Assembly (NCBI RefSeq): GCF_040436345.1
Contig: NC_133221.1
Location: forward strand, 25,311,665-25,375,664
Length of the DNA stretch: 64,000 nt
Source: Pagrus major
Taxonomy: Eukaryota > Chordata > Actinopteri > Spariformes > Sparidae
Direction of reading: 5' to 3'
This document shows, in pieces, positions 6,365 through 59,971 of the stretch. Within the stretch, counting starts at the first letter, position 1. Each line of letters begins with the position of its first letter. The translations under genes were made by a program, and so were the position numbers. Under the pieces are notes generated by a model. That model saw nothing but the letters and a program-made list of their open reading frames with translations, was not told the DNA's origin and did no database searches.

Positions 6365-9300
6365 ATGGATGAGGAGGTCGTCGAAAGTTGGGAGGAAGCT
6401 GCTGATAGTGGGGTAAATAATGAAAGGTTCAATATACCTTCAGTTAAAGAGGGGATTCCCGTTTGGTAGCTTCTCTGTATTTACATGGTTGTTTTTAGAA
6501 GTTCTCGCAACGATGTTCCTCACACGGGCCAACAATGTAGCTAAAGCTAACGTTAGCTTTAAGAAACTTGGCGAGCCAACGTCAAGTAGCTAACTAGCTT
6601 AGCTAACGTTAGCGAGCGAGACAGGCTTAACGCAGACCAGCCAAGTGACGTTGACTATTTCTAACTAATCTCGAATGATATAACCCCAATATATCTGTTT
6701 ATTAGCTAACGCTGGCCAGCTTACGAATGTACATGACGCGAGCTAAACCCACGAAATTAATGTTCCTGCTGAAATGCTTGACGTGAGCAAATGCTAAGCT
6801 AACTATGGCTAACATGGAAAATGTGTCTAATCAATGTTGGTTTACTTATTGGTGAAATTTACATCCCTCGCACAAGACAACAAGAACCCCATACACGACA
6901 CACACTCGCCTTAAAGTCACTCGGCATGTGTTTTGTGACACTAACAACTCATATCTTAAACACTGATCACCGCAATAACGATTAGCTAGCATTAACGGAA
7001 CCATCCTATAGACGACTAACGTTAGCTTAGCAGCGATTTAGCTACATTCGTAACGTCGAAATGTCCCCGTAATAAAGTAAACATAAGTAGTTACCCCAAC
7101 TTTGCAAGAACAATCGTCACGCCGATTGTTATATTGGGTACAGCAGCCATTACATTCAGTTCATTTAAGTTCGCACATTTTCTATGGAGCCTGGCTTTCA
7201 CTATGCATACTCCTGAGTTAACTTTGTGATTTCATGTCGCTAGTTCACCAGTCCAAATTGTTGTTGGACAACATTTTCGGCCATGTTGTTTGGTAAAACC
7301 CTGCTCTCGAGCTAGTTTTGTTGCCAAACTGGCAAGTTAGTACATTTAGCTAACGCTAACATTAGCCGTCGTCACGGTACTTTGGCAGACTATTGCTAGC
7401 TCGTGACGTCAAGAACGTGGCGCTGAGAAGAAGTTGGTCAAGTTTGTCAGGCTGAAGTTACAGATCATTATCGTCTTAACCTTCTGGTGTTAGTCAGTGT
7501 AAAACGTAATTTAAAAATGATCCTTCAATCTACCTTGGCAATTCTCGCTGGCAACATCAGCAGATTAATGTTTGCTAGCTGAGCACTCTCTGTTATGACT
7601 TGGCAGCTGTCCTACACATGTATAAATAGCTTGTAACTGAATCCTGTTTTCCAGCCACTCTGTGACTCGCTAACCACCTCTTCCTCCTACACCATATTAA
7701 TCTGACCATGTTGTTTGTTTACATTAATGTATGTTTGGACTGTTTCCCCCCCACAGGAAATGGAAAAACGGTTAGAAGAGAAGCTAAGGATCAGCCAGAG
7801 AGAAAAGTAAGGCTTTATGGAGGGAAAAGAAGTATATAAATGTATTTTATTAGAGGGGCACTGTGCACTTTTGGAGAAGAAATTCAAACTCTGAATTTTA
7901 ATATTTACAATATTAATGAGGTAATAATGATATTTTTTACATAACTGAATAAACAAGCTGTTCTCAGAGGAAAATAAGGTCCCAGAACACTGTTTGAAGC
8001 TAGAAAGGTGGCAGGGTCCGCCACATATAAACAAAGTACTTTAAAACAGTATGAAATTGTGTTGTCCTTTTAATGTTTATTGATTGTTTATCCTGAGAAT
8101 TTGTTTAGTAAGTTTGTTTAGGCATTAAAATCAGTCAATGAAGATCTTTCTCCTCTGATTGAAATTTCTTCCCAAAACTACATAGTGCACCTTTAATCTA
8201 TGAATTCATGTATTCATATTTTTGAATTGAGCTGAATTGAATAGCAGATCTGCACATTTCAGAAATTGTCTTTTAAGTATGTAACTTTGCTGATGAGTAT
8301 GAACAAACTGAAACAGTAATAGTCTTTTGGCCATGCATGTATCATCTAAGCTGTTATCAGCACCACCGCCCCCACTTAAAAGTATTAGCCTCTTCCTGTC
8401 TGTCATATTACTAATTTTGCGTGGTCTGCTTCCTGTCGGTCTGCTTCTAGGGAGTCCAGTAATAATTCTCAACGATCTCCATTGAGGACAACCATGGTGA
8501 TACAGGACGACTCTCTACCAGCAGCACCTCCACCTCAGATACGCATTTTGAAGCGGCCCGCAAGTAACGGGTCATTGGGATCACCCTTGAATCAGAACAG
8601 GCCTACACCACAGGTCAAGTCTCTGGCCCAGCGTGAGGCAGAGTACGCAGAGGCCAGGAAGAGAATACTGGGCAGCGCCTGCCCAGAGGAGACGCCTCAG
8701 GACAAGCCCAACACTGACCGGTAATCATCCACAAATATTGACAGTGTAGAGGTTTTACTCACAGCTTAATGAGGCCTTGCTTGAGGGCTGTAGCTATTGT
8801 GTATTCCCATAGTTGTATTTAAGACTGTTTAACGTTTTGTGTGCCAAGTTTCCAACTGAGAGAAGGCCGGCTAATGAATAGGTGTTATTTTAAGGCTCAA
8901 AAACAAATAAATGAACAAACCTGTAGTTGAAACTATAAATCAGCCTCTCCTACCAATACAAACTAAAAATCAGAATAAGAACTAAAGCAGTAGCCACTAA
9001 AAATGGGACTACTTCCAGCTGAATCCCTGATGAATTGTCAGAATTCATCAGAAAGGATGTGAAGACCCTAGCTGACCTCTCCTCCTGGTGTGTAACTTTT
9101 GCTTTCATTTTCTCGACTACAACTGGCAGAGGCACGCTGCTTTAGTTCTGCGTTTGGCTTGGCAGGGTTTTGATTTACAGGAAGTGGAGCCTAAAGATAA
9201 TCACAAGAAGCTTTCTGATGCAGCTTTGCAGAATTTCATTGAATGGTTCTTTTCATTTGTGTTGAGTTTGGATTTGGTTTACTGTGAAATGTGCCAAAAC

Positions 9301-14800: not shown

Positions 14801-17800
14801 ACCAGCTGGGTTTTCTGGTCAGGAGTCATGCGTGCAAATACAGTGGTTCGCAACAAAACCTGCAATGACAAAAAATGATGGCAAATGATCACATCTTGAC
14901 TTGACTGACTTCATACATTCATCATCTTTCTTCTTCAAGAGAAAATGGTGCTTGAAATACAGTGTCAGTCTAATGAATCTATTTGAACCAAACTATAAGT
15001 TAATTATTTTCCTTATCGCTACTCTCCTAGTTATCATATCCACTGTCAGACTGTTCCCGCTGGGAATATATAACACACAGTACCTTTGGCAGATACTCAG
15101 GGAAATGGTCACAGAGGGCAGCAAAGGACTTGCCACTTATAGCCAAGTGATAGCCAAAACCACCCTGGTACAGGCCCTGAGAGGAGAGAAGAAAAGCATC
15201 AATAACAGCGATATCTACTTAATTATTAAACACACAGAGTGCAGATAAGGACGAATATTAAGGTTCCATTTCCAATCAAACTTTATCACTGTTGTCCTTC
15301 GGGTCCTACAGCATGGCTGCGTGGGAAAAAATCCCACTCAGTCATGACACATGTTGAATGTCATTCCCTTAAATATTTATTCTTAAGTAGCAAAATCATG
15401 GCTGTAATCCAAACAGCCTCAGAATGTCATAACTGTCACACAACAACCCTTCTCCTTACAGGTGTCTAAAATATACCTTTGGCACCCATAAACAGAGTGA
15501 GAAGCAGTGAGTGTTCAGGAGTGTTGTGTGTCAGCAGGACCAACCTGAGTGATGACCTCTACGGAGCTTTGGGTGGACGTTGCCCCGCCGTCTTCCAGGT
15601 TGAACCTCAGGGTGGGCATGGACTGGGCAGTGTGGGGGGTTGCGTTGACGAATATCACCTTCTCATCAGATCCCACCATCCCACAGCTTTTTGCTACATT
15701 GACTGCTGTTAAAATGTTGTCTCCTGTGGAGAAGGACAAAACTAGATTTAACATGATGTTGATGCTGGCATCTTAATGCCTCAATAACAACAAAGTCAAG
15801 GGTCTTTTTTAACTATGTTTTTTTATACAAATACAAAACAACTCCCACCTGTGACCATGATGCTGCGAAGTTGTGCAAGTCTCAGGATGTTAATGACCTT
15901 GGCACTCTCCGGTTTTACCAGGTTTTTCATCATCAGCAAGCCCAGGAAGTGCATGTCTTTCTCTACCTCCCCTCTGTGAAAGACATACAGCTGCATTAAT
16001 CTATTGTGTTTACAGCATCATTTCTAGGAAACAAAAATGGCTCTGCCACAGAGCTGCAAAGAAGCCAGAATTACAGACTGGGTTCTCACCGTTCGATGGT
16101 CCTAAAGTCAGTGTTGCTGTCTAATGGTTTATAGGCGAGTGCAAGAACCCTGAGGCCTTCACTGGAGAAGCTTTGCAGCTTTCCTGAGAACTGTGCCGGC
16201 ACTGTAAGCACAAAGCATCCCTATTTGACACTGACAATAATTGACAGGAATTGGTGATAAAATAATTTCCATTTAAAATGCTGAACTGTATATTTACATG
16301 TTAAATAAATATTATTATTTTCATTACTGATACTAAAATACTGACCACTTTCTGCCCGACAGAGGCTAGCCACCATCTCTGGGGATCCTTTGATGAAAGC
16401 GAGAGCTGAGTGTCCCCCGCGGGCCACCGTCACCACACTCATCCGCTGCAGGGTCGAGGAAAAGGCAAACCTCTGCACAATGGCCACTGCCTCTCTCGTG
16501 GACTAACAGCAGAATGGAAGAGAAGAATAACAGTGATGTTTAAGTGGAAACTCCAGACAGAAGTTGACATATTAGGGACATCAGTGAGCAAAGCAGGTAA
16601 CTGATGTTTACCCACTTCTACATCTACATTTAATTCAGTTTGTAATTTAATACACTTACCACATGATCAAAATATAGCACTATGGTAAAAAAGGACAGAT
16701 AAATAATTGTACAAGGCATTTATAAAAAATTTGCCCCATTGATAGGTCTACATGAGAGGGATGTTCGGGTTACTCACAGGTCCTTGAGCTGAGAGCCGTT
16801 GAGTTGGAGGTCTCATAACAGCCAAAACTCTGTGGCCTCCAAACTCTGCATCCAGCGCCTTTCCATCTCCCTCTGGCTCCTCGAGCGTCTGGAAAATTAG
16901 ATACAATGTAAAGATGTGTTCAAAAGTGCTTTCAGTTGTCGTAAAAGTGCCATATAACTGCAAGTTCAAGATCTAATACAAGTCTTAAGATAATGGTTTG
17001 AATTAAGTTCACATGAAGATGACATATTATGACAATAGATTGCAGAGGGCATTGAAAAACAAAACAATATTTGAGATATAGGTTTTAAAGTATCAAAAAG
17101 TATTGTTTTTGTACAAATAGTGAACATTTTTGAACAGTACTAAGTTCTAGTCAAGCACCTCTTGAAGTAAATAAAATAAGCTTTATAGTGTCATACCCAT
17201 CCAGTGGACTCGACCATCTTGAGCTCCAGAGGGTCTCCGAGGGGCTGATCTCGCAACAGTGTCACAGTGTGACAGCAGGCCAGGCCTGTGAGCATGTTCC
17301 CTGGGGGCAGGAGGCTGGGCTCTGGGACCAGCTCAGAGAAACCAGCAGGTCCCCCCTCCATCACTCCCCACACATCCAGACCGTCCTCTGTAAGAGTACC
17401 TGTCTGGAGAAACAAGAGTACTCTGATGAAAGGCGACTTCAACATGTCAAGTGGTCATGACTGTCCCCCACACGTCCTCATTCTCACCTTGTCAAAGCAG
17501 AAGACTGACACCTTGCCGCAGATGTTGATGCGTGGTGGACTGATGCAGAAGACGCCCTGCCGCTTCAGCCTGCTCTGAGCGTAGATAGTGCCCGTGGTGA
17601 TGGCAGCTGGCAGGGCAGGAGGCACTGCGATGGTCACGATATCCAGGCTCCTAATCATCAGCTCCATCCAGGTCACCTGGACACACATTCAGACACAAGT
17701 GAGTGATATCTCTTCATTTATTGTTGCCATGTCAAATATAGACAGGCCAGAAATTATGTGGTCTTTGCATTGTAGTGTGGACTTACATTGGATCTGAAAA

Positions 17801-20800
17801 GCACCACGAAGCTGTAAATGGTGCCACTCAGAGCTGAAGAAAGAAGGACGAGATTGGAAAATGTTGGAATTGCTGACAAATTATTTGCCTAAAAGTCTTA
17901 AGTAACTCAGCAGTAGATACAGACAACATTCGTTTCTTCATAGAGTCTTTAAACAAAATAAGGCAGGTCTCTGCTAAAGCTCTTACCAACACAACCCAGG
18001 ATGAGCAGGAACTTGACAGAATCTTGGTAGAAGCGGAAGTTGGTCGGCTGAGGATACAAAATGGAGCTGACCAGGTTACCTTTGGCTGTGAAAAACCCTG
18101 TGGAGCAGATATGAAAAGGAGAACTGGCTTGAATTGGAGGGCAAACGGTAAGCTTTTAAAGGCGCCCTGTGGAGCTTCCCTGTAAACGAACAAAAGTTAT
18201 GTTTATATTCATTGTGATTCACCAAAACACATCGTGTGTGTCCTTGACTTCTTACAAACAGTTCCTTCCTTATAAACTCTTTGCAAAACTGTTTTTTTAT
18301 AGGAAATTTGGAAACCTGCAGTGTTTAGATCCATGCACAAACAAAAGAAACAAAATGGACCTGCTCATAACAAAGCTGTTCCATTTCGCTACTATATGTC
18401 AAAATTTCCACAGGTTTCCTTTAACTGACATCTCCCTAAGAAGTTAACAATTCAGCTCATCATTTTCTAGACTCACCGGTGCTTGTGACCACAGCAACAG
18501 CACCGCTGCCTCCCGGCCCACCTCCTTTTGCCTGAATGAGCTGGGTGCCACAGAAGAGGGTGTGTCTTCGCTCAGTCTCTGAGCTGTACGTCCCCTCACC
18601 AGCAGGCAGTGGGGTTTTCAGCACTGGGACACTTTCACCTGGACACAGGAATAATGCACACAGATGAATACATGTACTCCTCAATGAAAAACAATCTGGA
18701 GACTGTATTCAATGATTTGCAAATGCTTTTGTTCTGATGCTGGACTGGATTTCACCTCAGTTTCACATATCAGAGATGCTATTCAGAGCTCTGGAATCAG
18801 GCTTTTGTTGCCACATTTACTGGATTTTCCCCTTTTCTTGACCTGACCCAGTTTAAAGTGTTTTTTTTATTAAATCCTACATTTAAAGTGAAAACTGCTG
18901 CAACGCAACACTGAAGTTACTCTGAAGGTGTGTCATGGGCCGAGTGATCATGGCAATTATCATAAAGTTTAAGTTATAAAATAAGATAAGACAAGACAAG
19001 ATGTTCCTTTATTGATCCCCTTTGGAGAAATTCACAGGTAACACAGCAGTACAGAGGGAAATAAGTAGCAGCACAGAGAAGTCTCAAAAAATAGAGACAA
19101 TAATAAAGAGATATTTGAAGAAGAAAATAACAATTTGAATAGAAAATATAATAAAAACTATTTGAATAAAGATAAACATACTATATACAGTAACTGTCCT
19201 TGTATGTACACACATACTTGTGCATTATATAATAAATGTGCCTGTGCAAATGTGCAATGTTGCAAATATGACATATCTTTGCAGCTGCCCTCTGCCTGGT
19301 GGTGTTGTTTTGATGATCACCTGTGAGCATGCTCTCATTCACCAGACACTCCCCAGCCAGCAGGGCAGCATCACAGGGCAGCAGCAGACCTTCCTGAGGG
19401 ATGATTATACAGTCACCGGGGACCAGGTCCTCCGAACTCACACACTCCTCCGCTGAGAAAACACACAACTAGAAATGAGTATCCTTTTAAAGAGTTATGG
19501 GTTTAATACAGAATGACTAGACAGAAGCAGTCTGGCTTTTCTTGGCCTAATAAAACACAATTACTTCCTGATTTACCTCCTTATCTATTATCCTGAGTGC
19601 AACTGATCCATGGTAACTTTTTTCATCCATTGTTCAGCACATTTGAATTGTAAAGATGTAGAACTGACAACTACAATGCCCGACGAGGTACGATTGATTG
19701 CGTTAAGTTCTACTAAAGAGTTAAACCACTACTTGGGAAACTGAAACAATGGTGGTTCCAGTAATGCACCTATTTATGGAGAACACATGGCAGCTATTAT
19801 TGTCTCAGACAGCACCTGGGTATGGTATCAGTTGGCAACTCAAAACCATCTTTTACTGTTTCTGACCCCCTTTGAATGATGGTTATTCATCACTACATAA
19901 AACCATGGCTACAAATCAAAACTATAAACCTCTTCACCAAGCCCACAACTCATCAGGAAACTAAGGTGGTCCAAAGTGTTTCTTTAACATCAAGACACTC
20001 TGCTCTCTCTCTGCCTTCTGCCTTGATCCTTTAGCAGGATAAAACTCTTTCTGTGCCAAAAGTCTTTAGCTATTCATTTTGTTTTTAATAGATCTGCCAC
20101 TGCTCCACCTTCAGAGGAAGCACATTACTGCAATGCTAATTGAACAATATGCCAATCAAAAAACACATCCACAAAGATCGAGAAGAAAAGAACGATAAAA
20201 ATAATTCATATTGGAAGTAGAAGAAAACATTTGCATAAACTCACCTTCTGAGTTTCTCCGTATTGTGACATTTGTGACTAACCGTGCCATGCTGCGGAGA
20301 GTGACGCTTTGCTGTGGAGTAACATCAAATAAGGTTTATTTAATAACTTTTCCATCTATTTTGAGGTCTAAACAAATACATTATTATCAGATCAAGTATC
20401 CAACTGTAGGCTCACCTTGCGGATCTGATAAAGTGAGATACAGATGGACAGAATGGAGATAATGAATATACATATGGCGTAAATATAATAATTATCAATC
20501 ATCCACAGGGTGATGCTGAATAACTGGAACACATAGAAAGGGTTGATGACCTGAAGACGCAGATAAAGAGAGAGGGACAAAAAGGAAGGAGCAGGTTTAA
20601 TTCTGATAAAATCACAACCATCACAACAAGCCATCACAACAAATTCAGAGGCAGTATATAAAAGACAGATTTTTTCCATCTCACCTCTTCAAACAGTAGT
20701 TTCATGTAAGGCTTCACAGGCACATCAATAAGATTGGGCCCATACATGCGTCTCCTGAAATAATTCATGTCATGAATTACTCAGTCTGATGTTCAAGAGT

Positions 20801-28543: not shown

Positions 28544-32442
<3,899 letters not shown>

Positions 32443-34164: not shown

Positions 34165-37100
34165 ATGTCGTGGCTCTTCGGCTGGGGGAAGGGCTCCGGG
34201 TCTCCGCCGGCGGAGGAGCAGACACCGGCTGCTCCCGGTGAAGGAGCCGGAGGAGCACCGGGAGGTCAGGGGGGAGGCAAACCCGGGGACAAGTGGAGCA
34301 ACTTTGATCCGACTGGGCTGGAGAGAGCTGCAAAAGCTGCAAGGGATCTCGACAAATCACGTGTGTAATCATTCTTTACCACCATTTACAGTGTGAATCA
34401 CTTTCTTTCATTATCCCTGTGCTGTAATGTTTTTATTTTTTAAGTCTAGTATTTATTTGCTGCACGTGACGAGCTGTCCCATGTTGGCACGTTGTGTTCT
34501 TTTCTTCCCTCAGGCCGAATTCCACTCAGTAAATTAAGCTGAATTAATTGTCTCACAGTCAAATGTGCACACTTTGGACATCATGTTGTTTGAGCACTGC
34601 CAAACTGCCTGGTATCATTCTTTAATTCGGCGCATAATAGATCACATTTAAACTTTTTTAAAAGTGGTTTGCATCCACCAAACAATGAAACAATTTGACC
34701 CGACTGTTACAAAAAGTTTTGCCTTAATGGTGTGTATTCAGACTTAATCCTGAAAGTCTGAAGTTGTGTAATTGACTTGGCTTGCAGTTCTTTATCTCGG
34801 GCTGCTGAATTACTTGCAATGCTGCAGACTGCTTGCTGCACATGTGCTCGCTTGTTTGACCTCCACAGTCTGCAGTAAAGTTGAAGAGTTTTGGTGGGCG
34901 TGTCACTGAGCAAAGAGGGAACAAAGTGTCCCAGCTGCAAGCTCAGCCCATCACCTGTCCCACACATCCGTCCCTCCATGTCAGCATGGGCACATGAACA
35001 TGCTCTCTGCTGTTCACTGTGTGTATTTTTAACCCAGTGTGTGTCAGTCATAGTTGTTCATGTTGTTAACAATCACTTCATTCATCCTTCCAGCATCAGC
35101 TCTGCTCTCTGCAAGCACACTGATGAATAAGTTCTGTTCTGCATTACCTTTTAAAAGCTCTTTAAAGGGGCATTACGTAAGAATTTTAGTTGAAAACATT
35201 CAGAAATGAACTAAAATTGTCAATATAATGTGAAAAAAGTAACAGTTTTGACGTCTGTGTATTGTGTTGCAGAGACATCTACTCAAGTTAGCATGCTAAT
35301 CAGCTAGCTCCCATCTCAGTCCAAACATCCCATTCTGTGCTAGCGATATAAACACCAACACTCTTAGCACGGCTCACTAAGTTAACAAGCTAACGATGAT
35401 CTGCTTCCCAGTATTTGTTTTGAAAGTGAATGTAACAGGTGGCCAATTCTTACATATTGCACCTTTTTAATGTACAGTATGTTGTAGGCAGAAGTGTAAC
35501 CATCACTCAGTTTTTCCTCTGATTGATTTCAACAGGACATGCCAAAGACGCGCTGGCACTGGCTCGTATGCAGGAGCAGACCGTACAGCTGGAGCATCAG
35601 AGTAAAGTGAAAGTAGGTGTTGGAAGAGTTGGAAGTGCCTCTGATGTGATCTTGTGATCAGCTGATACTGTGTACCTGCTAAAACCTGATGTCAGTGAAC
35701 TTAACACAAACCAAACCCCCCACCCCAACAGGAATATGAGGCGGCCGTGGAGCAGCTGAAGGGCGAACAGATCCACCTGCAAGGCGAGGAGAGACGGAAA
35801 ACTCTCACAGAGGAGACAAAGCAAAACCAAGCGGTATGGGATTAACACTCGACACACTGTACTATTCTGACAGTAAAACAAATGTAATATGTATTTTACA
35901 TGTAAATATAATGAATTATTTTCTCTATCACCCCTAGAGGGCACAATATCAGGACAAACTTGCCAGGCAGAGGTATGATGATCAGCTCAGGCAACAGGTA
36001 AACCTTTTAACTGGCCACTTGAAATGAGTGCTTTAATTCCTGAATGGAGCGTTCATCATAATTTTTTTTCTTCCACAGCAATTCATGAACGAGGAGAGCC
36101 TTCGCAAACAAGAGGAATCGGTCATGAAGCAAGAGGCCATGAGAAAAGGTGGAAGATAAAACCAAACGCACCCTCGAATTTACACCTTATTCACCCACTC
36201 ATAATGTCATGTAAAAGCTCCTTTATTATCCTACTTTAAGCTGCAGTAAGTAGGATTTGTGCTGCTCCAAAGCAAAGAGTGACCCTGATATATCTGCAGG
36301 TTGTTGATCAGTACAGATGACTCAGCGATTACGTGGCTCACTGTGAGATTTGTGGCTCTCTGGGGCCCGTACTCTGCGTTAGAAGAAAGCTACCCAACCC
36401 AGTGGAGTTTCAAGACACCCACACAATATTAGCATTATACTAATATTTGTCAGGTTGATGAATTAGCACTAGACATTTGCATTGGGTCTCTGCTCCAGTT
36501 TAGCCACTCTTTTTATTTCCTTTAATTAAACAACGAAGGACAAAGACACAAATAGACCTTATTTAGTGGTGTACAGTACAAGTACATAAACCAAAAATAA
36601 GCAAATAGGGTAGAGGCACATACAGAGACAACGTGCTGCTTTTGTTTTTGATGGATCTCATAGATTATATTTGAGTTAAAAGTTGCAGTGCTACTTTGAG
36701 GATTTTTTGGGTATGAAAGACACAATTTGTTCAAAGCTACACTAATCAGTGTTTCTGTATTAAAAATGGATCAAATGACTATGTACAGTTTGGAAAGTGT
36801 CACTCCCAGTGAAACATAGACTCTGCAGTGTCCTTCAACTCTACAGAGCTTTTAGCCCCTTTTAGCTCACTGTTTTGGTTTTTCAGCCCATAACTATACC
36901 GTTATGGTTTACTCTATTGACAGTATAAAATATGGACGGAGCCTCCAGGCCTGAAAAGTGAAGACAATACAGAAGTGTCTTAAACCTGCATTTTTTCTAT
37001 TGGCCAGCTCCACTGGTTGCAGCAAGGATTCAGATTGTATTTAAGCTTATGAGAAAACGACCCTACTTTTTATTGTATATATTGCCACTGTAAACAGTTT

Positions 37101-40100
37101 CCTGATAAGTGTTTTTAAGTTCTAGTCCCATTTAGATGATAAAGCATGGATCCACCCTCTCATCCAAACATGGTCACTTCTGGCTTCTAAAAACCAAGAT
37201 GGCGACGGCTGTAATGCCAAACTCAAGGCTTCAAAACAGTATTCCTCAAACCAGTGGGTGACACCAAGTTTACACTTAGTGCGGGTTACCAGCCACAGCA
37301 GGCAGCTTTTTTTTCAGCAGCAAAGCTCTGATAAACCAACTGTATCCACATTATTCCTAGCCCCCATCATACCTTGCGTGAATTATTGGTGCATGCTTAA
37401 CCTGAACCGGCGTTTTCAGTGGTAACATGAAGCTGAATCTTGTTCTTAGAGTGATTGGTATGGCGTATCATTCATTCATAAAGAGCTGCAGCAGCTTTGT
37501 GTGAATACTACTAACACGATTATGCTTTGCCCACTTAGCAAACACTGCTAAAGGTTAAAGTGCGACCAATGCATCAGTTATTATACACCAGAAATACCAC
37601 CCATAACTGGAAATTTGTCAAGACAGCTCTAAATAGCAGATATATGAAGTCAGCAACTAGCTGGTGAACATAGTGAAGAACTTAGCAGCTAAAGAGCCAG
37701 ATGTTTCTCAGGAGAAGGTGGGGATCAAAACCAAGGGAGTGAATATTGTACTGCTTTTCCACCAAAATTAGCGGGTCTACACAGGTTTTATAAACGCAGG
37801 TGCACCTGCTAAAACTCACCTATTGACGCCATTCCCACTTCCCGCAGGCAAAGATAATGCTTTTTATCTGAAGTGTTATTATGTTGTGCGTCACTGACGT
37901 CATGTTTCACATCACCAATGTGCAGTAAACAGTTGTAACAGAAGAGAAAGCAACATTAGACCCATTGTGAAAGAAGCGTCCGTAAAACGGTGGATAAATG
38001 CTTTTGAGCGTCACAACCCCCACGAAATGACTCGTTTCACTATCATAATTTGAGTCATTGGGTCTAATAACATTTGGAAAGTCTGGAAGAGCTGCACGAT
38101 TAAATTATTTTATCCCCCTTCAAGTTAGCTGTGCACTAAATCGTAAGTTAGCCGGCTCGGTCTGCGATCCAGGTTTTATCAGAGCTGGGAAGTTGAGCTT
38201 TTTTGGCTTCAAAACACCACTGAGCAGCTTTCATAGAAATGGACGAGTCCTCCTCTTCCAACACTGTGTCCAGTAATAAGACATCCTTAGTGGACCACAT
38301 CCCAAATTCCTTCCTTATTTGCGTGAAACCACTGGATGTTGATAACGTGCATCACTTCGCGCGGCAGAATTTAGCGTGTTCACCTGGGTCTTCAACTGAC
38401 CCAGGTGTAAATACCGAGTTTACACATTCCCATTGCACACAAAAGCCCGATCGTAGCCGGTTTAAGTGGGATTTTTGACCAGTGGAAAAGGGGTATTGGA
38501 CTTACTTTCGTCAGATCACCAGACACACGACTCCAAAAGAGTATCAATGTTGCGTTGTGTCTGCTAGCTGTGCAAATGGCAATGGTTTGCAAACACATTT
38601 GCTCAAAAACTGTGTCAAAAAATACAGTTTGTTAGCATTTACACTGTGTTCTGCTGCCCCCAAGTGGCCATTAATAGGGCTATGCTGCTTTAACTTTTAT
38701 TTTACACAGTAGGTTGACTGATCATACAAACTCTGTGACATCCTGTTAAGAGTTGTGCTCAGGAGTGAAATAAAGGAGCAGACAGAGATATTAATAGAAC
38801 GGAATAATGATATGATGTATTATTTTAATATTTTATCGCAAGGAAGAAAATGCCATTACTGAAACGCTGATGAAAAGTAATATATTAGAAGAGCCTGTAA
38901 GTCGAAAGGAACTGTATCGTTCAATCAGTTTTAATCTAGTTTATACATGGTGTAATAAAATGTTAAACCACGTTGATTTAAGTAGGTCAAATTCTCTGAC
39001 ATATCTTCAAAAGTGGTCATAAACATAACTCTTTTTATTAATATCTGCCTCCTCTCCTCCCAGCTACCATTGAACGTGAGATGGATCTGAGACACAAGAA
39101 CGATCTGCTTCGCATTGAAGCGGAGGCAAAAGCCCGGGCCCAGGTGGAGCGGGAGAACGCAGACCTGATCAGGGAACAGATTCGCCTGAAAGCTGCTGAA
39201 CACAGACAAACTGTCCTTGAATCTATAAAGTGAGGGCAGAATGACTTTCCACTTTCCTTAATCCTTGGAGTAACTGGCATGTTATCTTCTAGTATCTCTC
39301 TCAGCTGGAAGGAGGTGTTGAACTAAAGTCCCATAGGGCAGCAGCAAGTGTGGCTGCCACAGTGGAGGCAGTCAGTGTGATAATTGTGTTTTGTTCCTGG
39401 CAGGACGGCAGGAACAGTGTTTGGGGAGGGATTCAGGGCCTTCGTCTCGGACTGGGACAAACTCACAGCCACGGTAAATCCATGTCCTACCTGTCACGCT
39501 TTGTCACACTTTGGTCACAGGAGGACTGCAGAGGATTATTGGAGGCAGGTGTCTTCCTATTTGACATGCCGCACAGTTATTTGAAGATGTGTGTGTTTGC
39601 TTTTTTTGCCACAGGTTGCCGGGTTGACCCTGCTGGCAGCTGGAGTGTATTCTGCCAGGAACGCCACAGGGGTGGCAGGGCGCTACATAGAGTCTCGTCT
39701 GGGCAAACCCTCACTGGTCCGAGAGACCTCCAGGATAACTGTTGCAGAGGCCATCAAACATCCAATCAAGGTCACACATCCAGCTAATCCTGCCAGATGA
39801 TCTTGATTATTGTTCATATTTTTACCTCAAAAGAAACTGAACATTTGTATTCATCTTTAGAAGAACAGGAGGGTCATTCATTGGTGATAAAGTGTTAAAA
39901 TTAATGAAGTTTTTCTTTTATTGTTATTATTTTATTACTATGATGAGATACAAGTCTTTGTATAGGCAGTCAGATTTCAGATGTAATTCCTGTGAATAGC
40001 TGTTAACCGATTTGAGCTAAAACAGGGTAGAATTAAATTTCCTTTGTTTTCCTCTGTTTTAGACAACCAGGCGTCTGAGAAGCAGACCGCAGGATGCCTT

Positions 40101-40801
40101 AGAGGGTGTGGTGCTCAGCGTGAGTCATTTGCGTTTCATGGTTCTTGCCGTATTGATGTATTCACATTTTATGACTTTGTGAAAAATGCTGAATGCTGTC
40201 ACTTTGCTGTGGATCCCACAGGCAGCTTTGGAGGGACGTGTGAGGGACATTGCCATCGCCACTCGTAACACCAGGCAGAACAAAGGCTTGCACAGAAACA
40301 TCCTGATGTATGGACCCCCAGGAACTGGAAAAACACTCTTTGCCAAGGTATGGCCGGTCTTTTTCTTTCATGCTTTTTTTGACATTTTGTGGCTCTAGTC
40401 GATGTTTAAAGATGAGTGCAGTGACTTTCTATATAAATAAAAGCATATTTTCCTCCAACTGCTGATTTACATATTACAGCATTGACCAAACCTATTATGA
40501 CCAATTCATAAAAGTCCCTGTATTTATGGATTTAACACTAGGAGTCAGGTCCTTTTTTTCTGGCAAAATCTCTGGCCATGGCATGTAATGTATTATATTT
40601 TTCTGGTTTTGAATCAATAGAAAAATAACTGGCTTCTTAGCATGAGTAGTCATACTCATACCACACATGTGAAAGTACCACAGCAATGACTGATTATGAA
40701 ACCTTTCACTACAGATCTTAATATATGTTTAAATGTTTAAATATATAATCTTTAAACATTTTATTTTCATGTGTGTATGTATGTATGTATGTATATGTAT
40801 G

Positions 40802-40845
<44 letters not shown>

Positions 40846-43800
40846 TTTATAAAAAGATTTAATTCTTAAAGATGAAATTCCGTATATTGGTGTATTTTCT
40901 ATTTATGTAGCTTGTTTATATTTTTAAGATTGCATTTCTATTTTGATTTTTTTGCCTCTCTGTGCCTTTTTGAGCAAAGCTCTTTCCATTACCTTTCAGA
41001 AACTGGCTCTCCATTCAGGGATGGACTATGCCATCATGACAGGTGGAGACGTGGCACCCATGGGGCGAGATGGAGTCACTGCCATGCACAAGGTGTTTGA
41101 CTGGGCCAGCACCAGCGGCAGAGGGTAGGGCACTTTAATTTCTCCATAAACACTTGATAAATTAGTAATTAGTCCTTAGTAAACATGTATCAGCTGTCAG
41201 ATATTGATATTGACTATTGACTGAAGTTCATTAGTGTTGACTGTATGTTGTGTTATAAACAGAGCTGCTGTCATTCTACTGGCTAATTACATTAAAGGTC
41301 TTTCAGAAAATGGCAGCTTTTAAGCTCATTCTCTTTGATGTTCTCTGATTCTCTGCAGCGTCCTGCTGTTTGTAGATGAAGCTGACGCGTTCCTGCGTAA
41401 GCGATCCACTGTGAGTTCAGCTGCAGTCCATGTGCACAGTGATGGTGCCCTGTGTTTTGATCATTTATTCATGAGTCATGATTTTTGTATTGCAGGAGAA
41501 AATCAGTGAGGACCTCAGAGCCGCCCTCAATGCATTCCTTTACCGCACTGGGGAGCAGAGCAACAAGTTGGTATCTTATGTTATTCAGTGTGCATGGCTG
41601 GGTATGAAAAGGTCATTGCCATGACTGAAAAGGTCACTGGCCGAGTCTAAGTGGTCTCATTTTCTCTCCTCAGGTTCATGCTGGTGCTTGCTAGTAACCA
41701 GCCAGAACAGTTCGACTGGGCCATTAATGACCGCATTGATGAGATTGTAAACTTTGCGTTACCGGGTCTGGAGGAGAGGGAAAGATTGGTGCGCCTGTAT
41801 TTCGATAAATTTGTGCTGGGTCCTGCCACTACAGGGAGACAGTGAGTACACTTATTGTATTTCAATAACAGCTACTGTTGCTGCTCTGTTGCAGAGGTAA
41901 TTTACCACCGCAAAGGAAAGCATTGGTCCCTAGAGGTCGCCTTGCTAGCTCAAGTTGCTTAATGGCGTATATAATGTATTCAGTACTGAAACCAAAGTGG
42001 TCTCTGATTCTTCACTCAGAGCTTTCATGAAATGGTGTTTAAGTCCTCGAGAGATGTAGTACAGAAGCCGTTGTGGAGTGTATTGGTCAATTGAAACCAT
42101 TAAATGTGTGACTGATCAATGATAAGAAACAAGCTAAAGCTCACATCCTGTACAGATCCCTTGTGCTTTAACTCAACAGGAGATTAAAGTTGGCTCAGTT
42201 CGACTATGGCCTGAAGTGTTCTGACATTGCAAAGCGAGCAGAAGGCATGTCTGGTCGTGAAATCTCCAAACTTGGTGTTGCCTGGCAGGTGAGTAGAAAA
42301 ATCTGTTGACACAAAATATGAATCTGCTTCAAAACAAATCCAAAGCCAAACTTATACTGAAACTGGTTTCCTGGTAGGCTGCCGCATACTCTTCTGAAGA
42401 TGGAGTTTTGACCGAAGTGATGATTGACTCAAGAGTTGATGATGCCATCAAGCAGCATGCTCAGAAAATGGACTGGCTGCTGATGGAAGCAGGTGTGGGG
42501 GTTGGCAAGGTCGGTGTGATCCTCCCTAAGGAAATGGCTGCAGGGATCACAGCCCAGGAAGCTGATTCACTTGGACAAACTGAAGAGGCAACCCCGACCA
42601 TACAACAAGTCCTCCCACTCATTGAGGTTGTGAGCAGCGCTGCCCAGGCAGAAGCAGCCACTCTACCTTCTGAAGTGGAGGCAGAGGTTATTCTCAAAGA
42701 GGCAGCCACTTTGGTTAAGGAAAGTGAAGTTGTTGCAGAGGCAACTGAAGGAACAGTTGAAACCATTGTTGAGACAGCTACTGCTGCCCCATTGGTGCAG
42801 GAGGTTGAAGCTATCAAGGACCTGACTGAGGAGGTTACAGGCACAGCTGTAGCTACTGACACCGTTGTTCCTGAAGTGAAGGATATGGTCGTTGAGGTTA
42901 AAGAGGCTGAGGGTGTACCAGATTCTGCTGTCCAAGAAACTGCTGCTGTGACCAAAGAAGAGCTAACTACTGATGTAGCTGCGCAAGAGACTGAGGCCAC
43001 AGAACTAGTCAAGGAGGAAAAGGATGCTGTTGCACACTTGGAAACAACAGTCTCTGCTGTTGCTCAGGAGAAGGAATCAGATGCTGTTGTCTCTAATGTT
43101 GTCCAGGAGGCAGAGTCAGCTGCCACCTCTGTTGATGGTGTAGAAGTTGAAGCCACTAAGGCTGCTGAGGCAGAGGAAGTGGCAACTGATGCTGCAAAAG
43201 TTGCAGAGGAAATTGCAAACAATGTAGCTCAAGTGACTGGCTCCATGGCAAACATCGTAACACAGGCTGAGGCAATAGCAACTGATGTAGCCAAGGTGTC
43301 TGATGCTGTAGCAGCCGTCGCTGAAGAGATAGAGGTAGCAGTTACCAAGGAGTCTCAGACATTGGAGGTTTCTAAAGAGGTTGAAGTGTTAGTGACAGAT
43401 GTGGCCAAGGAGTCTGAGAGTATTGCTACAGAGGTTGTTAGGGAGGTCGAACCTGTGACGACTGGGACTGCTGCCAAGGAAGCCGAAGTGAACCTGGCAG
43501 AGGTCACCCCAGCAGAGGTTGCTAAGGAAGCCGAAGTCACCCTGGCAGAGGTTGCTAAGGAAGCCGAAGTCACCCCGGCAGAGGTTGCTAAGGAAGCCGA
43601 AGTCACCCCGGCAGAGGTTGCTAAGGAAGCCGAAGTCACTCCGGCAGAGGTTGCTAAGGAAGCCGAAGTCACCCCGGCAGAGGTTGCTAAGGAAGCCGAA
43701 GTCACCCCGGCAGAGGTTGCTAAGGAAGCCGAAGTCACCCCGGCAGAGGTTGCTAAGGAAGCCGAAGTCACCCCGGCAGAGGTTGCTAAGGAAGCCGAAG

Positions 43801-44354
43801 TCACCCCGGCAGAGGTTGCTAAGGAAGCCGAAGTCACCCCGGCAGAGGTTGCTAAGGAAGCCGAAGTCACCCCGGCAGAGGTTGCTAAGGAAGCCGAAGT
43901 CACCCCGGCAGAGGTTGCTAAGGAAGCCGAGGTTGCTAAGGAAGCCGAAGTCACCCCGGCAGAAGTTCCCAAGGAAGCAGAAGTCCTAACAACCAAAGAG
44001 GCTGATGTTGAGGCTACAGAAGATGTGAAAGTGCCTGAGACTACTGATGTTGCTGCAAAGGAAGCTGAGGCGAAAACAACAAAGGCTACAGAGGAGTTAG
44101 GGACTGTAGCAACTGAAGTAACAGATGAGACAAACTCAGCAGCAGTTCCCAAAATCGAAACCAAGGTTGATACAGAGACTGTTGTGCCAGAACAGTCTGA
44201 GAAACCTGAGAGTCCAACCGCAGAGAAGTCCGCTGCCTCTCAAACTCCCAGCACTGAAGAAGCTGAACCCAGTCAATCTGAGAAACCTCTTTCAAACAAA
44301 CAGAGTGGAGATGATGACGGCAAACCACCAGCCAAGTCTAGTCCAACGAAATGA
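34165..44354 (+). CDS. atad3: ATAD3, mitochondrial AAA+ ATPase with giant C-terminal extension
   Basis: Sixteen coding exons: 34165-34360, 35536-35612, 35732-35833, 35938-35997, 36079-36148, 39064-39229, 39404-39473, 39615-39770, 40063-40119, 40222-40347, 41000-41124, 41359-41410, 41496-41566, 41674-41841, 42180-42288, 42378-44354. They give 1193 residues; the family usually has about 590-640. In order: MSWLFGW N-terminus with a Gly/Pro-rich stretch, [19 protein letters not shown], a long coiled coil (about 60-220), hydrophobic segment [14 protein letters not shown] (248-261), Walker A GPPGTGKT (349-356), Walker B LLFVDEAD (404-411), sensor-1 ASNQ (Asn about 451), and the arginine region NDRIDE. 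The conserved domain ends near residue 574; the rest is the extension described separately. ATAD3 spans the inner membrane, with the ATPase in the matrix, and supports nucleoid, cristae and cholesterol functions. One donor (exon 13, GTTGGT) is weak. Confidence 0.97.
35161..35470. mobile_element. MITE family B, copy 1 (ATAD3 intron 1)
   Basis: The right end (GGCCAATTCTTACATATTGC followed by ACCTTTTTAA) is the inverse complement of the family left end TTAAAGGTGCAATATGTAAG. The left end here is diverged. The centre carries GCTAGC/GTTAAC words (GTTAGCATGCTAATCAGCTA). Confidence 0.8.
36149..39063. other. ATAD3 intron 5 (2.9 kb)
   Basis: The longest ATAD3 intron separates two coiled-coil exons. 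It contains the 747-bp inverted-repeat element at 37749-38495 and a repeat-like start, TAAGCTGCAGTAAGTAGG, near 36238. No nested gene was recognised. Confidence 0.65.
37749..38495. mobile_element. Non-autonomous DNA transposon with ~15-bp inverted ends
   Basis: The left end TACTGCTTTTCCACC and the inverted right end TACCCCTTTTCCACT match at 12 of 15 positions. The trinucleotide TTG directly flanks both sides (37746-37748 and 38496-38498), consistent with a 3-bp target duplication. Internally there is no transposase frame. PIF/Harbinger-type elements make 3-bp duplications, but the family is not identified. Confidence 0.6.
40775..40850. repeat. (GTAT)n / (TA)n microsatellite
   Basis: GTAT units grade into an uninterrupted TA run in ATAD3 intron 10, between the Walker A exon and the next exon. 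Confidence 0.9.
42480..44351 (+). other. ATAD3 C-terminal acidic extension (residues ~575-1193)
   Basis: The last exon carries the normal family ending ([20 protein letters not shown] ... KMDWLL) and then runs on without a stop for about 619 codons. The encoded tail is dominated by Ala, Glu, Val, Thr and Lys. I count no Phe, Tyr, Trp or Cys after the DWLL segment, and a single His and a single Arg. It is net acidic until a Lys/Pro/Ser-rich end. With ATAD3 topology it should lie in the matrix. Degenerate VAKEAE-like words outside the perfect array suggest that the whole tail grew by repeat expansion. It is one open frame with the conserved domain, and the gene's poly(A) signal follows 30 bases after the stop. 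Confidence 0.9.
43506..43985 (+). repeat. 33-bp coding minisatellite in ATAD3 (14 units)
   Basis: Thirteen head-to-tail 33-bp units run from 43506 to 43934. They are followed by an 18-bp partial unit (43935-43952) and a fourteenth, diverged unit (43953-43985). Each full unit encodes [11 protein letters not shown]; unit 2 has L for P and the last has P for A. Units 3-12 are identical at the nucleotide level except for ACT in place of ACC in unit 5, so the array was homogenised recently. It encodes residues about 912-1071. Because 33 is divisible by 3, all frames on both strands stay open across it. Confidence 0.97.
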
Positions 44355-44383: not shown

Positions 44384-44389
44384 AATAAA
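44384..44389 (+). terminator. ATAD3 polyadenylation signal (AATAAA)
   Basis: A canonical signal 30 bases after the stop, followed by a GT-containing stretch. It supports the end of the long last exon being a true gene end. Confidence 0.8.

Positions 44390-47260: not shown

Positions 47261-59971
<12,711 letters not shown>

Follow-up and report, generated by a model that had tools for sequence, protein, structure and literature searches.

We describe here the ATAD3 gene of the fish Pagrus major, as it reads in a 64,000-nucleotide stretch of contig NC_133221.1 (assembly GCF_040436345.1, positions 25,311,665 to 25,375,664 of the forward strand). This whole stretch is called the window, and its own positions are used throughout. 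The last exon of the gene runs on in frame for 623 codons beyond the conserved C-terminus of ATAD3, giving the protein an acidic tail about as large as the protein itself. With a probability of roughly 0.5, we read the tail as a lineage-specific, slippage-expanded extension that would place a helical segment and an acidic brush in the mitochondrial matrix, with a spacing and tethering effect; this function we infer from the sequence.

The ATAD3 gene and its last exon

The gene lies on the + strand at 34165-44354 and is complete, with 16 exons and a product of 1193 residues. All 15 introns have GT-AG boundaries, and the sole stop in the joined frame of 1193 codons is the terminal one. The translation matches the ATAD3 N-terminal domain (PF12037 ATAD3_N, E 1e-105, residues 38-283) and the AAA ATPase domain (PF00004 AAA, E 6e-22, residues 345-471) of Pfam, and it carries Walker A and B motifs (GPPGTGKT and LLFVDEAD). 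The gene is a bona fide ATAD3 orthologue. The parts of the last exon that matter here are as follows:

42378-44354 (+), ATAD3 exon 16, a single open frame: 35 conserved C-terminal codons (KMDWLL ending at 42482), the tail and the stop TGA
42483-44351 (+), acidic C-terminal tail, 623 codons (from translation, shuffles and codon-position blocks)
44384-44389 (+), AATAAA polyadenylation signal (motif scan)

After KMDWLL the 623 codons follow in the same exon up to the TGA at 44352-44354. The core of 570 residues has a calculated mass of 63.5 kDa and the tail one of 64.2 kDa, making about 128 kDa for the whole. The tail is dominated by a few residues (E 125, A 121, V 100, T 70, K 47, P 33, S 29, with H 1 and R 1); Phe, Tyr, Trp and Cys are absent. 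Acidic residues (D/E) number 146 vs 48 K/R, and the isoelectric point is 4.09. The first-pass annotation had read the gene as ATAD3, continuing in frame in the same exon straight past KMDWLL into an acidic tail that lacks these four residues and doubles the protein. The two domain matches, the single open frame, the composition and the two lengths confirm all of this. Its estimate of about 619 codons is corrected to 623. The AATAAA that it placed just after the stop is indeed there, starting 29 bases past it and not 30, and AATAAA, ATTAAA, AGTAAA and TATAAA are all absent from exon 16 itself.

Coding evidence for the tail

A chance origin of the open frame is excluded. In 500 dinucleotide shuffles of the whole tail, the longest open run in the three forward frames averaged 100 codons with a maximum of 209, vs the 623 observed. 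For the 458 codons outside a repeat array (described below), the mean was 84 and the maximum 165. The asymmetry between codon positions exceeds that of every shuffle, in the whole tail and outside the repeats alike. Outside the array the three positions have entropies of 1.54, 1.78 and 1.94 bits; this spread of 0.394 compares with at most 0.060 in the shuffles. Variation thus falls on the third position, within a conserved class of amino acid. Glu, Ala, Val, Thr, Lys and Asp are each encoded by more than one synonymous codon; outside the array, for example, there are 35 GAA and 45 GAG, and 27 GCA, 14 GCC, 2 GCG and 34 GCT. When the tail is divided into 14 blocks, G is commonest at codon position 1 in every one, most weakly in the last (0.29/0.16/0.11), and hence no slip of the frame is visible. 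The tail looks like a translated frame under protein-level constraint, which speaks against a hidden frameshift.

Two antisense open frames lie opposite the tail, at 43358-44239 (-) with 294 codons and at 42464-43063 (-) with 200 codons. They are probably by-products of the codon composition of the tail, and nothing backs them as genes.

Segments of the tail

The first-pass annotation had pictured the tail as one very large domain. This view is refined here: the tail is a series of distinct segments, one of which, a young tandem array, accounts for 165 of the 623 residues.

42483-42920 (+), segment 1, tail residues 1-146, linker with 7 prolines (composition, periodicity scan)
42921-43451 (+), segment 2, residues 147-323, proline-free, with a periodicity peak at 103-104 degrees (hydrophobic periodicity)
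43131-43445 (+), residues 217-321, steady heptad register, best in 15 of 15 printed windows (register scoring)
43476-43970 (+), segment 3, residues 332-496, 33-bp minisatellite coding for an 11-residue unit (repeat spacing, Tandem Repeats Finder)
43971-44351 (+), segment 4, residues 497-623, Pro/Ser/Thr-rich acidic end with 11 prolines (composition)

A heptad repeat corresponds to 102.9 degrees per residue. Tail residues 166-331 have a hydrophobic periodicity of z 5.9 at 100 degrees and 5.6 at 105 degrees. In the proline-free segment the peak lies at 103 degrees for a window of 18 (matched by 1 of 1000 shuffles) and at 104 degrees for windows of 36 and 54 (z 6.2 and 6.1, matched by none of 1000); with the window of 54, z is 6.0 at 103 degrees. 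Segment 2 thus has the heptad hydrophobic periodicity of a left-handed coiled coil. One heptad register ranks top in 15 of the 15 printed windows that start between tail residues 217 and 287, and its best contrast was reached by 4 of 500 shuffles. Elsewhere, residues 1-146 peak at 111 degrees (z 3.3, 15 of 1000 shuffles), and no periodicity was found in residues 497-623, where 813 of 1000 shuffles scored as high. The Eisenberg and helix-propensity scales were used.

The array has units of 48, 12 x 33, 18 and 33 bp, all multiples of three and in frame. Ten of the 12 consecutive 33-bp units are identical, one differs by a synonymous change and one by a Pro-to-Leu change. Tandem Repeats Finder reports 13.0 copies at 98%, a length that is the value of one assembly, and proline is present in 13 of the 15 units. 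Such near-identity suggests that the array is the youngest expansion of the tail, and its copy number may vary. There is no support for descent of the entire tail from an old 11-residue repeat: in the parts before and after the array, z is 2.5 and 1.8 at lag 11, -0.2 and 1.3 at lag 22, and -1.2 and 0.1 at lag 33. Before the array, the highest values are at lags 27 (z 3.8) and 31 (z 3.5).

When scanned alone, the array matches 24 Pfam families up to E 10, of which five pass their whole-protein cut-off: HTH_31 (37.5 bits vs 27), MarR_2, HTH_3, DUF4279 and HTH_26. On the whole of exon 16, HTH_31 falls below its cut-off (25.3 vs 27). We discount these matches, mostly to helix-turn-helix families, as sums of partial matches to the repeat copies; the top match, HTH_31, aligns to 26 of the 64 positions in its profile. 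The matches to these five models, a likely artefact of the repeats, could mislead automatic annotation.

Relatives of the tail and known ATAD3 extensions

In the pieces of the tail outside the array, no family reached its Pfam cut-off. The best was Syntaxin (E 0.05, 13.8 vs 26.7 bits), with ATG17_like, SKA1, FlaC_arch and EVI2A weaker still (E 1.3 to 6.1). Weak matches in the PDB (8z5g_A, E 0.018; 5j45_A, E 0.45 and 0.2; 5vo5_A, E 0.39) appear to reflect helical, low-complexity sequence and were set aside; the best 60 of 207 PDB matches included no ATAD3 chain. Within the window, neither the exon-16 core nor the non-array tail recurs at E 1e-3. A viral contig collection gave 24 pattern matches, none confirmed; this is a non-fish collection, silent on absence in fish. 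A genome contig collection, queried with the first 374 residues of exon 16, gave 220 pattern matches, again with none confirmed, and is equally silent on fish. Neither a long-tailed fish ATAD3 nor a 623-residue tail is described in the titles and abstract starts of the papers listed by searches of the open literature. Predicted long-tailed fish ATAD3 entries may well exist among protein database annotations.

Human ATAD3A and vertebrate ATAD3 in general share with the present protein the ATAD3_N and AAA domains, and human ATAD3 presumably has the same 16 exons and the same KM-W ending. An end shortly after the KM-W motif is usual for ATAD3, although not a defining trait; here 623 residues follow. 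Human ATAD3A has 586 residues in total (PMC13249166), whereas here 623 residues lie beyond a core of 570. With a core of equal length, the normal end would therefore fall about 16 residues past KMDWLL. Two shorter extensions have been described. Human ATAD3B gained 62 C-terminal residues through mutation of the original stop codon (PMC11599198), and the 663-residue ATAD3 of Plasmodium falciparum has a lineage-specific extension of about 100 residues (PMC13249166). The initial statement that ATAD3 proteins end within about 20 residues of this point thus calls for qualification: it fits human ATAD3A, but not ATAD3B or the Plasmodium protein. Both extensions are C-terminal like the present one and far shorter than its 623 residues; such short additions are not the limit for ATAD3.

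The LC3-interacting region (LIR) motif of ATAD3B reportedly lies within its C-terminal extension. ATAD3B is described as an LC3-binding mitophagy receptor with this motif (PMC10556134). No LIR (aromatic-x-x-aliphatic) was found in the tail, and a canonical one is impossible because W, F and Y are all absent. A resemblance of another kind lies in composition. The PEVK region of titin and the side arms of neurofilament-H are low-complexity Pro/Glu/Val/Lys/Ala repeats that act as entropic springs or brushes; their likeness to the tail is one of composition only.

A proposed role for the tail and its alternatives

In the explanation that we prefer, the last ATAD3 exon would have gained an acidic tail in one lineage, with the frame retained. 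The tail would then have been enlarged by replication slippage or unequal exchange among Glu, Ala, Val, Thr and Lys codons, the 33-bp array being the newest step. If translated, as we infer, the tail would project from the C-terminal side of the AAA hexamer, six tails to a ring. According to mammalian work, ATAD3 sits in the inner mitochondrial membrane with its ATPase on the matrix side, and its C-terminal region, in the matrix, is said to bind nucleoids (PMC9640553, PMC11599198); by this topology the tail too would stand in the matrix. The proline-free segment may fold into one long helix, which perhaps enters a coiled coil inside a hexamer or across neighboring ones; the array together with the acidic end may make up a PEVK-like flexible polyampholyte brush. 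The effect would probably be mechanical, with ATAD3 rings spaced and tethered relative to each other and to matrix partners such as nucleoids, and with the length of the array itself under weak constraint.

A bolder version, which we regard as unlikely, is that in this lineage six coiled-coil stalks with PEVK-like springs extend from each hexamer into the matrix and link the rings into a large scaffold that holds nucleoids at the inner membrane, the minisatellite setting the length of the spring. If this were true, natural alleles of array length would tune the spacing. For the questions of how ATAD3 contacts nucleoids from its matrix side and how its rings are put together, the C-terminus doubled by a heptad-like segment and a repeat-built spring may serve as a natural experiment, in which removal or shortening of the tail would reveal contacts of the C-terminal face of the ring.

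Several points weigh against the proposed role. The top heptad register switches several times upstream of tail residue 217, and a coiled coil across all 177 residues of the segment is therefore unsupported. The segment was picked after the proline pattern and a first periodicity scan were known. In a control on residues 85-220 of ATAD3, the peak fell at 163 degrees (z 3.0, 33 of 1000 shuffles). This region was expected to be helical and was not flagged as such, so the sensitivity of the periodicity test is uncertain. Strong coiled coils do not usually have cores rich in Val and Ala. By charge and hydropathy the tail comes out marginally as folded (0.475, with the boundary at 0.470), a measure that does not indicate disorder of the tail as a whole. 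The matrix location is also disputed, since a review has the C-terminal region of ATAD3B facing the intermembrane space (PMC10556134). Finally, there is a donor-like site ten bases into the tail, possible and not significant:

42493-42494 (+), donor-like GT (CAG/GTGTGG) in the tail (splice scoring)

With a score of 4.2 it outranks 13 of the 15 true ATAD3 donors. The tail could thus be an exitron, mostly spliced out or bypassed to give a normal short ATAD3, with the long form rare. The top acceptor-like sites within the tail are at 43068 (3.8) and 43107 (3.3), and either join would end the protein 12 residues past KMDWLL, a normal length for ATAD3. An equally good donor appears, however, in 60% of 500 codon-shuffled tails, frame-shifted joins stop early by chance, and the splice scoring matrices are approximate. 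The lack of a polyadenylation signal within exon 16 and the codon constraint along the tail, which implies translation, also argue against this explanation. An exitron is not indicated, and we hold it to be improbable.

A more serious contender, although we give it only about one chance in three, is that the tail is translated and is a nearly neutral low-complexity extension, tolerated without a dedicated function. The recently expanded array (more than a quarter of the tail, with 10 of 12 consecutive units identical) and the lack of a Pfam family above its cut-off in the other pieces are in its favor. An HA-tagged ATAD3 restored the behavior of mitochondrial DNA in depleted mouse cells, the position of the tag being unspecified here (PMC9640553), and this too can be counted for neutrality. 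The 623 open codons, a composition devoid of Phe, Tyr, Trp and Cys, and the heptad-like signal suggest protein constraint instead. The 11-residue repeat of the array, together with amphipathic stretches at tail residues 231-248 and 306-323, brings to mind the 11-mer domains of perilipin, alpha-synuclein and LEA proteins. A lipid-binding or stress domain of this kind, coating the inner membrane, seems quite improbable to us. The helical segment peaks at 103-104 degrees and not at the 98 degrees of an 11/3 helix, where z is 4.0, 2.2 and -0.2 for windows of 18, 36 and 54; the two angles are separated by the long windows only. Proline occurs in most units of the array, and a net negative charge is unfavorable for cardiolipin-rich membranes. 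No LEA, perilipin, synuclein or apolipoprotein family was among the Pfam matches listed (exon to E 1, four pieces to E 10), with HMMER filters that discard most weak matches. Least probable of all is that an error of sequencing or assembly produced the long frame, or that the assembly gives the array a wrong size, a very small chance in our view. Assemblies often get the length of near-identical tandem arrays wrong, and the copy number here comes from a single one. Against an artefact, the window has no N, no stop interrupts the 458 codons outside the array, and the frame persists through all 14 blocks. Real doubt is confined to the length of the array.

Remaining gene model and neighboring frames

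The upstream exons of ATAD3 are all on the + strand:

34165-34360 (+), exon 1, with the ATG start at 34165 (gene model)
35536-41841 (+), span of exons 2-14 (GT-AG boundaries, continuous translation, Pfam ATAD3_N and AAA)
35536-35612, 35732-35833, 35938-35997, 36079-36148 (+), exons 2-5 (gene model)
39064-39229, 39404-39473, 39615-39770, 40063-40119, 40222-40347 (+), exons 6-10 (gene model)
41000-41124, 41359-41410, 41496-41566, 41674-41841 (+), exons 11-14 (gene model)
42180-42288 (+), exon 15 (gene model)

Intron 10 contains an AT-rich microsatellite at 40769-40851. Five of ten other frames in the window matched a Pfam family. The downstream neighbor of ATAD3 is a TMEM240 exon at 59528-59971 (-) (PF15207, 2.4e-44). 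Upstream lies a 2Fe-2S frame at 30290-30715 (-) (PF13085 Fer2_3, 3.8e-14), which we take to be perhaps an SDHB exon. Two P-type ATPase pieces at 16224-19468 (-) (PF00122, 7.1e-09; PF13246, 1.4e-06) may belong, we presume, to an ATP13A-type gene, and a SUZ-domain frame at 8389-8721 (+) (PF12752, 6.5e-15) is perhaps, on the same footing, SZRD1. The gene order of the window presumably resembles that of human 1p36.

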